A stretch of DNA of 20,666 nt from positions 1-20,666 of the IMG/VR virus record IMGVR_UViG_3300034101_000866. One strand, given 5' to 3'. The DNA comes from a virus. The translations under genes and the position numbers were made by a program. Below the pieces are notes generated by a model. It worked only from the letters and a program-made list of their open reading frames with translations, was not told where the DNA came from and searched no databases. Of this stretch, positions 9,896 to 19,790 are shown piece by piece; position 1 is the first letter of the stretch; every line of letters starts with the position of its first letter.

Positions 9896-11186
9896 TTTGC
9901 TCTCCGTACAGCGTGCCGTAAGGTGTCATTGCAATACCGCGACGGACATCAGCGGCGTTTTTGTTTTCCTCGTCCTTGCTGCCCGAAGAACCGCCGAGCA
10001 ATCCGGCCAGACCAAGAATCCCGAACGGATTTGCACTACCACCTGACGTAGTGTCACCCGAAGCACCACCCGAAGTACCGCCTGAAGTGTCACCCGAAGC
10101 GCCACCTGCATCTCCAGTAGCAGTTGACGCCCCCGTATCCGTAGATGCTGTAGTTGTGCCCACGGAGTCGAGCGAAGGCCCAAGCAGGTCAGGGCCTTTC
10201 AGGTCAGACAGTGCCCCCGCAACCGACTTGCCGACTCCCGCAGCACCCAGCCCCATGTTGACCAGTCCAGCAGGAACACCAAGCGTATTCCCTATCAGTC
10301 CTGCAAGGCCCGATTGTGCAATGCCACCAGCAAGAGGTCCATACTGTCCGCCGAATGCCTGTTGCAGAGCGCCCTCTGGGATGTTTGTTTTCCCGCTGAG
10401 CAGGCCGAGACCGATCTGTGCAAGCGCTTGTCCCGGAGTCAGATAGCCTTGATGCAGCCCCACGAGGGCCTTGGACACAGACGACAGCGTGCTGAAACCC
10501 GGGACCATTGCGTTGGCAAGACCAGGGAACGCGTAGTCCATCGCGTCCGACACATTGAACGCAGCAAGGGCCTGATCAACCGTCTGGTTGTCGGTTATGT
10601 TCAGCCCGCCGTATCCTGCAGCAGACACGGCGTCCAGCGTGCCACGGTCTAGTCCAGACACGCTGATTTGAGAAGGGTCGATGTTTCCAAACTCATCCCT
10701 GCCCGCAAAGGCCAGCAAAGCATCCAGAGGCATGTCAAGTGCTTTAGCGACTTGATTGAGCGCTTCCGGGTTTGCGGTGTTGGGGTTGGTCCCCGCGTAG
10801 GGACCAATAGGACCATGCGTCGGGTCCAGCCCAAGGGAGATGTTCATCCCCTGAGAGACAATTCCTCGTCCACTAGAGTCCTGCCAGCCTCCAGCAAGTT
10901 CGCTTCCAAGGACGTTATCTGCTGATTTTCCACTCCCAGTACTTGTGCCGGAGGTTCCAATATCTAGGCCGAGGCTCGCAGCCGCCGCCGCATCACCACC
11001 ACCCGCGTCGGAAAAACTACCCCCGCCTAGTGACCCTGCGAGATCTCCTGAGCCTCCGTATGCGTCATTGCCCCCACCGCCGCCACCATCACCGCCGTCA
11101 TAGAGCCGGATCTTGCGGTTACCGCAGTGTGTAAATGCCCTCAGATCACCTGACGGGATCTCCAGAGCCCAGAGACGATTTCTCAT
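9888..11186 (-). CDS. Gly-rich low-complexity phage virion protein, 432 aa
   Basis: The start is ATG 11186, which overlaps the TGA of the GNAT-like gene as ATGA. An upstream in-frame start at 11237 would intrude 55 bases into that gene. The N-terminus (MRNRLWALEIPSGDL) is compact, then residues 30-90 are dominated by Gly, Asp, Ser and Ala. The centre (about 95-240) looks globular. Residues 245-345 are rich in Gly, Ala and Leu and moderately hydrophobic, which might allow membrane contact. Residues 350-395 are an imperfect Gly/Ser/Thr/Asp repeat. No catalytic motif is seen. The position at the head of the low-complexity block suggests an internal or ejected protein, by inference only. Confidence 0.88.
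   Translation of the reverse strand: MRNRLWALEIPSGDLRAFTHCGNRKIRLYDGGDGGGGGGNDAYGGSGDLAGSLGGGSFSDAGGGDAAAAASLGLDIGTSGTSTGSGKSADNVLGSELAGGWQDSSGRGIVSQGMNISLGLDPTHGPIGPYAGTNPNTANPEALNQVAKALDMPLDALLAFAGRDEFGNIDPSQISVSGLDRGTLDAVSAAGYGGLNITDNQTVDQALAAFNVSDAMDYAFPGLANAMVPGFSTLSSVSKALVGLHQGYLTPGQALAQIGLGLLSGKTNIPEGALQQAFGGQYGPLAGGIAQSGLAGLIGNTLGVPAGLVNMGLGAAGVGKSVAGALSDLKGPDLLGPSLDSVGTTTASTDTGASTATGDAGGASGDTSGGTSGGASGDTTSGGSANPFGILGLAGLLGGSSGSKDEENKNAADVRRGIAMTPYGTLYGEQNV
10051..10106 (-). repeat. Imperfect 36-bp-spaced repeats encoding a Gly/Ser/Thr linker
   Basis: The 20-base block at 10051-10070 recurs at 10087-10106 with one mismatch, and shorter nine-base echoes lie between them. It encodes repeating GGASGDT units in the C-terminal third of the 432-aa protein, so it is probably a disordered linker subject to repeat-number change. 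Confidence 0.8.
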
Positions 11187-11593
11187 ATTGCAGCCTCGAA
11201 GACGGTGTACTTCTTCTTCAGACCAAAGCGTGCCCACAGACGGACTGTGGAATCCCTACCGGCCCCGGCAATACGTGTTGCCCCGGCAGCTTTCAGCAGT
11301 GCTACAAACTGAGCGTACCCATCAGGCTTGGCAATCCATCTCCCACCAATCGCCAGGACAAAAGCCACACGCGCGTTGCGTTGGTTCTGAAAGGTCACTG
11401 CCGCTGCGCCTATGACCTCATCCCCTTCGATAGCCTTATAAAGCGCAGCCCGATTCTGCCCCAGATCCGCACGAAGCTGACCAATAGTAATCTCACCAGA
11501 CGCTTCAGGGTTCTCGAACGCAGCACGCAAGTACGGTTCCACCTGCTCCCACTGCTGGTGGATGAACGAGGTGGACACGTATTCGACTTTCAT
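11183..11593 (-). CDS. Small phage protein resembling a GNAT acetyltransferase fold, 136 aa
   Basis: ATG 11593 begins 14 bases after the TAA of the 459-aa gene, and the stop overlaps the next start. The sequence alternates helices and strands in a GNAT-like order: N-terminal helices (WEQVEPYLRAAFE), a strand pair (AALYKAIEGDEVIGAAAVTF), a strand (RVAFVLAIGG), a helix (YAQFVALLKAAGATRI) and a C-terminal RDSTVRLWARFGLKKKYTVFE segment like the end of GNAT proteins. A clear Q/RxxGxG/A acetyl-CoA loop is not visible, so activity is doubtful. In T7 the internal virion protein gp13 is also described as GNAT-like and precedes the large core proteins, as here. That correspondence is inference. Confidence 0.85.
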   Translation of the reverse strand: MKVEYVSTSFIHQQWEQVEPYLRAAFENPEASGEITIGQLRADLGQNRAALYKAIEGDEVIGAAAVTFQNQRNARVAFVLAIGGRWIAKPDGYAQFVALLKAAGATRIAGAGRDSTVRLWARFGLKKKYTVFEAAI

Positions 11594-17600: not shown

Positions 17601-17604
17601 CCTC
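17601..17604 (-). promoter_or_regulatory. Ribosome binding site fixing the tail-fibre start
   Basis: GAGG on the minus strand is five bases before ATG 17595 and overlaps the stop codon of the 140-aa gene. It argues for this start rather than the in-frame codon at 17688. Confidence 0.7.
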
Positions 17605-18025
17605 AAGCGAAGCGCAGCAGCGCCGTTGTTGCAGTTGCTGCGGGCATCTGGATCGTGAACGTGCCCGACGCCGTCTTGTCAGCACCAAAGTCCAGCACAG
17701 CGATGGCGCGGTTGGCCTTGGTCTCGTTGTAGATCAAACCGCCCCGGCAGGTGAAAGATGCGTTGGCCCAGACCGGATTGTCAAACGTGACGTAGGCAGT
17801 GGTGCCGGAGAGAAGGACTTGGACGTTGGTAAGCGTCACACCGCCCGCCACATACCCTGTACCAGAAGCCTGTCCCGGCGTTGAAAAGCTGTACGCTGTG
17901 GTGGCTTGACTGAGATCTGCTGATGCGGTGTAAAGCGCCAGCTTCAGCGTGTCGGTGTCCAGATCATGGATACCTAACCAAGACTCCTGCTTGAACGAGG
18001 AGCACATTCCTTGGAGTATAGGCAT
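17603..18025 (-). CDS. Small beta-rich phage virion protein, 140 aa
   Basis: ATG 18025 directly abuts the TAA of the adaptor gene. The sequence begins CSSFKQESWLGIHDLDTDTLKLALYTASADLSQ and continues with SGTGYVAGGVTL and VTFDNPVWANASFTCRGGLIYNE blocks. From memory this pattern is frequent in structural proteins of uncultured marine phages, where it is annotated as structural or hypothetical. The profile is strand-rich with Thr, Ala and Gly and has no membrane or catalytic motif. A decoration or tail-associated role is plausible. A second Met at residue 7 exists but has AAGGA immediately adjacent, too close for good spacing. Confidence 0.9.
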   Translation of the reverse strand: MPILQGMCSSFKQESWLGIHDLDTDTLKLALYTASADLSQATTAYSFSTPGQASGTGYVAGGVTLTNVQVLLSGTTAYVTFDNPVWANASFTCRGGLIYNETKANRAIAVLDFGADKTASGTFTIQMPAATATTALLRFA

Positions 18026-18670
18026 TTACTTCACCGGGTTTCTGACCTGACCGCTGCGGTAGGCGTCTTGACGGTTTTTGCCGTCGCCCAGGTTCTTCAG
18101 CAGCAGGATCGAATCATTGAACTGGCTGACGTACAACTGGACAATGTCCTGCTCAGCCTTCATGAACCGAGCAGCTTCCACCATGATCGCGTTGAACAGC
18201 ACGCTGTCAAAGTTGTTGCCAAGCCATGTGTTGCCTGCCGTGACGATGCTTTCAGGCTGGTAGAAGTAGTTCAGCTCCGCATTCAACGCAGCATTCGGCG
18301 TCGGGCCGAGAATGATCTGCTGGATTAGCGTGGAAGCTGTACCGTCAAGAGCGTAGTACTTCGGAGTACCCGTACTCGCCGGGTTCGGATAGCTCTCCCG
18401 CATGAAGTTCACATCCTTGTTCAGGAGGAACTCGTATGCCCCCGTGGCAAGAATGATTGCCAAGGAGTACGCTGCCAGGAAGTCCGAAGGAAGACTCAGG
18501 TTCCTGTTGCCGATAATCAGCGTCAGCGTAGAGGTCTTCCGAAGGATCGGAAGCTGCACCGTCTGATAGATCTTCTGTTCTGCCAGCTTGGTGAGCGTGG
18601 CAAAGTCAACAGACGAGAACGTGTTCTCGGTGCTGTCCTCGACGGCGACCTGCAGTGCAGCGTAGTCCAT
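18026..18670 (-). CDS. Head-tail adaptor-like protein, 214 aa
   Basis: ATG 18670 begins three bases after the previous stop. The N-terminal part has helices (VDFATLTKLAEQKIYQTVQLPILR) followed by strand-like TSTLTLIIGNRNLSLPSDFLAAYSL, with 'LPSDFL' as seen in adaptor or tail tubular A-like proteins. Then comes a central strand region (KYYALDGTASTLIQQIILGPTP, LNYFYQPESI) and a C-terminal helical part (SVLFNAIMVEAARFMKAEQDIVQLYVSQFNDSILLLKNL). Overall length and secondary-structure order fit connector proteins of podoviruses (T7 gp11-like, about 200 aa) that join portal and tail. The assignment is by resemblance only and another virion role is possible. Confidence 0.88.
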   Translation of the reverse strand: MDYAALQVAVEDSTENTFSSVDFATLTKLAEQKIYQTVQLPILRKTSTLTLIIGNRNLSLPSDFLAAYSLAIILATGAYEFLLNKDVNFMRESYPNPASTGTPKYYALDGTASTLIQQIILGPTPNAALNAELNYFYQPESIVTAGNTWLGNNFDSVLFNAIMVEAARFMKAEQDIVQLYVSQFNDSILLLKNLGDGKNRQDAYRSGQVRNPVK

Positions 18671-18851: not shown

Positions 18852-19022
18852 TCACTTCCTCTTGCGCCCGACCGGGCCTTGGTTCGCCACGCGGGCCATG
18901 TTGCGACCCATCTTCTGGGACATCTTGGTGGTCACACCACCCTTGGCGAGCTTGGCGCCGGGGCCGTGCGCCACACTGGCGGGCTTCTTGGCATGTGCCC
19001 GGAGGGCCTTCATTGCGTCCAT
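18852..19022 (-). CDS. Tiny strongly basic phage protein, 56 aa
   Basis: I choose ATG 19022 because AAGGAG stands five bases upstream. An in-frame start at 19064 would add 14 residues but lacks this signal. The protein starts MDAMKALRAHAKKPASV, has an LAKGGVTTKMSQKMGRNMARV centre and ends GPVGRKRK, with a large excess of Lys and Arg and almost no acidic residues. It could bind nucleic acid or another virion protein. No family is recognised. It is followed one base later by the other tiny gene, a linked pair. Confidence 0.85.
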   Translation of the reverse strand: MDAMKALRAHAKKPASVAHGPGAKLAKGGVTTKMSQKMGRNMARVANQGPVGRKRK

Positions 19023-19064
19023 GTTCACTCCTTGGTTGGACCGAATGATAGCGGAACTGCCCAC
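19023..19064 (-). promoter_or_regulatory. Largest intergenic gap, carrying a strong ribosome binding site (AAGGAG at 19028-19033)
   Basis: This 42-base stretch is the only sizable spacer in the window. It contains AAGGAG five bases before ATG 19022. I see no convincing -35/-10 pair and no hairpin followed by a T-run, so beyond translation initiation nothing can be assigned. Confidence 0.6.
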
Positions 19065-19790
19065 TCAGGTAAAGATTAAGTAAGCAGCGTAGGTCGCGGG
19101 GTTCGCAACCATGTATGGATTAAGCACTGTTTCGATATACGTATTGTAGGCGGGGAGATTTAAAGTTGGGTTGCCGATAAAGCGGGTATACGCGAGCGAA
19201 TCTGAACTTTGTACTGCACCGTTGTTTGTTATGTCTCCCAGCGGGCGGGAGCCAATAAGTGTATCTTTAAATAACGTCTTTGCGGGTTCTATGTTTAATG
19301 CCGCCAACAAAATAGTAGCCGGCATTACGCTGTAATTGACATAAATACCACCGGGGGGAGCCGTAGGCGACGTAGTAACTTGACCAACTTCACCCACGCC
19401 GACCAAGGTGTTTGGCGTGAGCACAGCGTCAAAGTCCCTGGCACCACCGATAGGGTTCCACCCCCACTGGATGACCAGCATGCCCTCGCCAGGAAAGCCC
19501 TCTTGCAAGGGGCCGGTGCCTGACACCGTGTCAGTTTGGAGGCCGTTCGTTCCGGACTGATACCACGTATTTGTGTCCGGACGGGGGTCCCGCAGAGCCT
19601 GGGGGTCATCCACCGGGTACATGCCCAACTGCAACTGCGGCTGGTCCGGAGTCCAGCACTGAGGGCACGCCTTGATCTGCGTCTGCTTGGTCTTGACGAC
19701 GAGGTTCTTGAGCTTCTTCAGGTCGAAACGGAACCCACAGACGTCGCAGAACCCGAACGCCTTTGCGCCGTTTGCAAACCTGTTGGCCAT
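19065..19790 (-). CDS. Phage protein with N-terminal zinc-ribbon-like Cys pairs and C-terminal dockerin-like loop, 241 aa
   Basis: ATG 19790 follows the previous TGA by one base. C15-DV-C18 and C42-PQ-C45 form a four-Cys zinc-ribbon pattern separated by 23 mostly basic residues. The middle contains WGWNPIGGARDFDAVLTPNTLVG and strand-like sequence. Residues 186-197 (DITNNGAVQSSD) followed by SLAYTRFIG match a dockerin-type calcium loop: Asp1, Asn5, Gly6, Val8, Asp12 and a following helix. Only one such loop is visible, whereas typical dockerins have two. The protein probably belongs to the virion, given the adaptor gene downstream, but its role is unknown. The DNA around 19080-19340 is AT-richer than its surroundings. 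Confidence 0.9.
   Translation of the reverse strand: MANRFANGAKAFGFCDVCGFRFDLKKLKNLVVKTKQTQIKACPQCWTPDQPQLQLGMYPVDDPQALRDPRPDTNTWYQSGTNGLQTDTVSGTGPLQEGFPGEGMLVIQWGWNPIGGARDFDAVLTPNTLVGVGEVGQVTTSPTAPPGGIYVNYSVMPATILLAALNIEPAKTLFKDTLIGSRPLGDITNNGAVQSSDSLAYTRFIGNPTLNLPAYNTYIETVLNPYMVANPATYAAYLIFT

Follow-up and report, generated by a model that had tools for sequence, protein, structure and literature searches.

A mobile dockerin-like module shared by unrelated, mainly neck and tail, proteins in metagenomic phages

A C-terminal half-dockerin module in a predicted virion protein of the window (the whole 20,666-nucleotide stretch analyzed, from IMG/VR record IMGVR_UViG_3300034101_000866) recurs within unrelated virion proteins of other phages, and is likely, though by no means assured, to be a mobile, calcium-stabilized, dockerin-derived accessory binding module of the neck and tail, probably an adhesin. 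The protein that carries it in the window comprises the following features:

19065–19790, minus strand: ORF of 241 amino acids in the virion gene block, with a zinc-ribbon-like core and a C-terminal half-dockerin module
19371–19790, minus strand: conserved core, residues 1–140, near the end of which 59 of 81 IMG/VR ORFs (the window's own included in the 81) stop
19656–19748, minus strand: CxxC-x23-CxxC (C15, C18, C42, C45), zinc-ribbon-like
19080–19343, minus strand: half-dockerin module of about 88 residues (about 150–237), from profiles, AlphaFold and structural neighbors
19200–19235, minus strand: single F-hand/EF-hand loop DITNNGAVQSSD, residues 186–197, from family conservation

The core has the two CxxC knuckles of a zinc ribbon, with C15, C18 and C42 present in 16/16 aligned cores and C45 in 15/16, and these N-terminal Cys pairs lie apart from the module, as the preliminary description had proposed. 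The Pfam family Zn_ribbon_8 matched the window protein weakly (E 0.32), and HypA-like rows in VIA-align reached a Z of 3.0 over a stretch modeled with low confidence, the core being poorly modeled by AlphaFold (pLDDT mostly <60). A neck or tail context is supported by a gene downstream, which matched SU10_adaptor in Pfam (E 1.7e-19). Two distant cores came from Pag-Yong1 and DSL-LC04, both of them isolate phages, where they immediately adjoin adaptor genes. The core is thus a putative neck/tail-block gene with an optional tail, since most relatives are tailless, others are variously tailed, and the distant cores adjoin adaptor genes. A very basic small ORF (18852–19064, minus strand) separates the core gene from the adaptor; it is kept in relatives, where an AAGGAG ribosome-binding site precedes it, and has no family match in Pfam or PHROGs. 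Another small ORF within the tail gene block (11183–11593, minus strand) resembled a GNAT acetyltransferase by eye.

The search for relatives of the window protein in IMG/VR returned 283, the best 80 of which were kept. Among the resulting 81 ORFs (those 80 plus the window's own), 59 ended at about residue 141–143, 10 had the half-dockerin, six a LamG tail, five a Gly-rich tail and one another tail, which starts Gly-rich and is interrupted by the contig end (L030). The LamG tails were named by Laminin_G_3 (E 1.6e-15 and 1.5e-12) and the Gly-rich ones by Gly_rich_2, under its cut-off (E 9.5e-5 and 7.3e-4). The zinc-ribbon core is joined to a LamG (ConA-like) tail in L012, L016, L022, L027, L028 and L036, and to a glycine-rich one in L017, L020, L025, L026, L030 and L074. 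Because these tails replace the half-dockerin on the same core, residue ~141 is an apparent swap point for tails. An empty site was also seen in the DNA, where the window and the module-free L010, L011 and L024 align on both sides of the module. Nine bases at the stop codon, TTTACCTGA, are common to module-bearing and empty cores (window 19065–19073, minus strand; L010 2595–2603), and are possibly a recombination joint.

When the C-terminal motifs of the tail, and not the loop, were used as the search pattern, the module was found inside other proteins, and wider scans followed. An iterative HMM search over all gathered loci yielded 186 ORF segments; the distinct proteins bearing the module numbered 88, and by flank similarity they formed 22 clusters, while 0/13,800 shuffled ORFs reached an E of 10. 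Two weak or doubtful clusters (L175 and L209), which look like a different kind of protein with repeats, were left out of the tree, leaving 20. Carriers that could be named with PHROGs or Pfam were the lambda-J-like central tail fiber J, the P22 gp10-type stabilization protein/Hc3, phrog_3287, the SU10 adaptor, a T4 gp53-like baseplate wedge, Hc2/wedge proteins, a tail-tip fiber protein and phrog_28581; the remaining carriers had no match in either collection. As a point against a neck or tail site for every carrier, PHROGs assigns phrog_2941 and phrog_3287 to its head and packaging category. Empty versions of three carrier types are all present in the window:

18026–18670, minus strand: SU10-type adaptor without the module; homologs bear it in two different loops (L216/L235/L154/L173/L195/L157, and L098)
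17603–18025, minus strand: phrog_644-like protein without the module, which lies inside the homologs L093 and L104/L105
12984–15152, minus strand: phrog_3287 virion protein without the module, which L106 and L111/L113-115 bear at two different sites

Compared with these and other empty homologs, the insertions were in frame and in loops. At the first adaptor site the insert separates stretches that follow each other without a break in the adaptor of the window itself, the second (in L098) is another loop, and in the phrog_644-like carriers the flanks of the module align to the empty copy of the window. Like mobile accessory binding domains of phages (Ig-like and CBM types), the same module occurs in unrelated virion proteins that also have empty homologs. 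A model of the adaptor with its insert still matched solved adaptors (Pa223, Z 14.8; SU10, 7z47, 14.7; T7 entries, 10.3–10.9), the module part being of low to moderate confidence, with few module rows. The preliminary description, which placed a half-dockerin on one virion protein, was right as to its presence and underestimated its spread, as the module is mobile across many unrelated virion proteins and the zinc-ribbon core is one carrier only.

An adaptor homolog in L230 (8480–9334, plus strand) holds a different insert of ~70 residues in yet another loop, so these loops may be hotspots for insertion in general. In L104 (290–1216, plus strand), an adaptor homolog that exceeds the usual length of 214 residues by ~95 adjoins the module-bearing phrog_644-like gene. 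The contigs L154, L170, L173 and L216 have two to three modules each, either in adjacent genes (core-like and adaptor) or as two copies within a single protein. Across 63 module-bearing records, some near-identical and most of them fragments, a single copy was found in 58 (23/23 and 35/40) and two or three copies in 5, which rules out a strict rule of one per genome.

The main alternative to a binding module is a structural clamp, by which calcium-dependent self-association or docking to a neighboring virion subunit would stiffen the neck or tail with no outside binding. The predominance of connector and tail parts among the named carriers, and the usual single copy per record (58/63), would suit such a role. 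However, the carriers differ widely in kind and core homologs are mostly without the module (59/81 core only), so that no fixed neighbor is in common, and LamG and Gly-rich tails occupy the same place on the core; we consider the clamp rather unlikely. The accessory-adhesin reading draws on the neck and tail carriers and on the lectin-type tails that take the place of the module on the core.

The preliminary description had placed a half-dockerin loop at residues 186–197, with Asp, Asn, Gly, Val and Asp where expected and a helix next, and sequence comparison confirmed it as a real dockerin/EF-hand-type loop. The residues of DITNNGAVQSSD fit the dockerin/EF-hand pattern (D1, T3, N5, G6, V8, D12), and the predicted helix spans residues 195–206. 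A regular expression for the loop, picked after the loop had been seen, occurred in 13/20,000 shuffles of the window protein. The loop was kept in 18/18 loci retrieved by the C-terminal motifs of the module alone, without the loop in the search. Over 71 modules the ligands were D1 in 71/71, G6 in 69/71 and D12 in 69/71, a set partly selected by the loop pattern, though the 18 motif-found loci were not.

The dockerin profile support that had been named as a check was found with family profiles, the window protein alone remaining under the Pfam Dockerin_1 cut-off (E 0.15; 12.7 bits against 22.9). In an hmmsearch of PDB, a profile of nine relatives ranked dockerins first (best E 1.3e-5), and the 13 matches listed included 10 cellulosomal dockerins or dockerin-bearing enzymes by name, 8x39/8x3a ("serine protease," in an entry titled double-dockerin) as two further ones, and one unrelated protein. 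A profile of 19 relatives again ranked dockerins first (best E 5.2e-7), with dockerins or dockerin-bearing proteins as 24 of the 25 matches listed. Some of these PDB entries we take to be cellulosomal dockerins or dockerin-bearing proteins. Dockerin_1 was also matched at E ≤ 0.01 by 5/19 module members (best 3.6e-4), and on the strength of the family profiles a chance loop was rejected.

AlphaFold modeled the module with a pLDDT of 94–98, with helices at residues 156–164, 170–175, 195–206 and 213–229 and short strands at its two ends (149–151 and 238–240), so that computation shows it as an autonomous predicted fold. In VIA-align, rows 1–6 were all dockerins, at low Z (3.4–4.4); since the rows extend over residues 149–226, the likeness to dockerins exceeds the loop alone. 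As to a dockerin fold the outcome was mixed, with a confident model and dockerin neighbors on one side, and low Z scores on the other, together with a Foldseek search of the whole model against PDB in which nothing was significant (best E 0.41, to zinc-ribbon proteins). A viral structure library searched with the model also gave nothing significant.

These data bear on whether an ordinary phage-specific domain merely looks like an EF-hand by chance, with no relation to dockerins. The weak single-sequence match (E 0.15) and the low fold Z leave some room for this, but the 19-relative profile (E 5.2e-7) listed almost only dockerins, and the sequence-profile and structure rankings agree on them; a chance likeness is therefore quite improbable, and computation shows the module to be related to dockerins. 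It is not a true dockerin because it has a single loop only, its first half being loopless where a dockerin has two tandem F-hand repeats. Compared with type I dockerins (PF00404), the module shares the 12-residue D-x-N/D/T-x-x-G-x-V-x-x-x-D loop and F helix, and dockerins were nearest in the structure comparison. Unlike them, it has one loop instead of two, an extra C-terminal helix and no enzyme or scaffoldin, is often inside virion proteins, and had no cohesin in the records searched.

For the phylogeny, removal of redundancy at 90% identity within each label left 71 of the 88 modules. Carrier label changed 31 times on this tree, in which many forks are unresolved, compared with a least possible number of 17 and a shuffled mean of 53.2. 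Starred forks uniting different carriers exist, for example L104 (phrog_644-like) with L197 (core). Among modules from different carriers, the closest 25 pairs had an identity of 56–66%, so the observed hops do not date from very recent times. The GC content of the module was 0.458 against 0.602 for the core; as proof of recent transfer this was rejected and is suggestive only, as other window genes hold stretches as poor in GC3. Most close module pairs are under purifying selection, with a median dN/dS of 0.155 (18 of 20 pairs, two being saturated); two close pairs had values of 1.0 and 1.34, on few changes. In-frame insertion at several sites in many unrelated genes might also be expected of a selfish element, spliced out like an intein or skipped in translation and with no virion role, but this is scarcely credible, as Pfam scans (E ≤ 0.01) with 19 modules and with 10 carriers gave no intein or splicing family, the window module is a C-terminal tail whose splicing would join nothing, insertions sit in loops, and the loop ligands are conserved under mostly purifying selection.

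In the accessory-adhesin reading, the C-terminal ~88 residues would be a self-contained, probably calcium-stabilized domain derived from a dockerin, built of one intact F-hand loop and helix, a loopless first half and an extra C-terminal helix. Phages would exchange it as a cassette among exposed loops and ends of neck and tail proteins. With its ligand positions kept, the module probably binds calcium, and it may be displayed on the outside of the virion, in the window protein presumably anchored at the neck or tail by the zinc-ribbon core. The ligand would belong to the host envelope, to an extracellular polymer or to a particle, or perhaps be a cohesin-like domain, and the lectin-type modules presumably do likewise at the same core point in sister phages. 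The cohesin-like partner suggested earlier was not recovered, PF00963 being found in 0/24 virus records searched; if the module docks to a cohesin-like domain, the partner would consequently lie outside the phage, and one from the host is conceivable.

No significant match to seven module query sequences was found among 50,697 records of isolate phages, no cellular relatives of the module were detected in a species-genome collection by scans dependent on short patterns, and no description of such a module was found in the literature searched, dockerin-related work included. Mobile Ig-like domains of tailed phages offer a precedent, as one domain, a beta-sandwich, occurs on unrelated virion proteins and is present or absent among close relatives; the module is likewise distributed, but is mostly helical, of EF-hand type and often inside loops. 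In PMC5967307, "dockerin" refers to a carbohydrate-binding module of a dockerin-named protein. In lactococcal 936 phages, according to PMC6669499, the neck, tail and Dit proteins bear carbohydrate-binding modules, two of which were shown to bind hosts. Both systems appear as exchangeable accessory binding "bricks" on several neck and tail proteins, although those of the 936 phages are lectin-type and from one phage group, whereas the present one is a candidate binding module, dockerin-like and helical with a calcium loop, from very different tail types.

As far as found, a dockerin-type mobile domain on unrelated neck and tail proteins is new, mobile accessory domains as such being already known. 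The module is common enough in metagenomic viruses to recur across many protein families, yet is absent from the isolate records searched. A wider and more speculative proposal, which we advance tentatively, is that uncultivated tailed phages, whatever their tail type, have in common a roaming cassette of dockerin origin, usually one per genome, which would move between loops of neck and tail proteins and dock under calcium control to some conserved environmental partner, cohesin-like or a polymer, as a viral counterpart of the cellulosomal plug and socket. The findings extend the small set of domains exchanged among phage virion proteins by one of EF-hand/dockerin type, mark permissive insertion loops in adaptors and fibers, and offer the prediction that such phages would bind in a calcium-dependent manner through the neck or tail.
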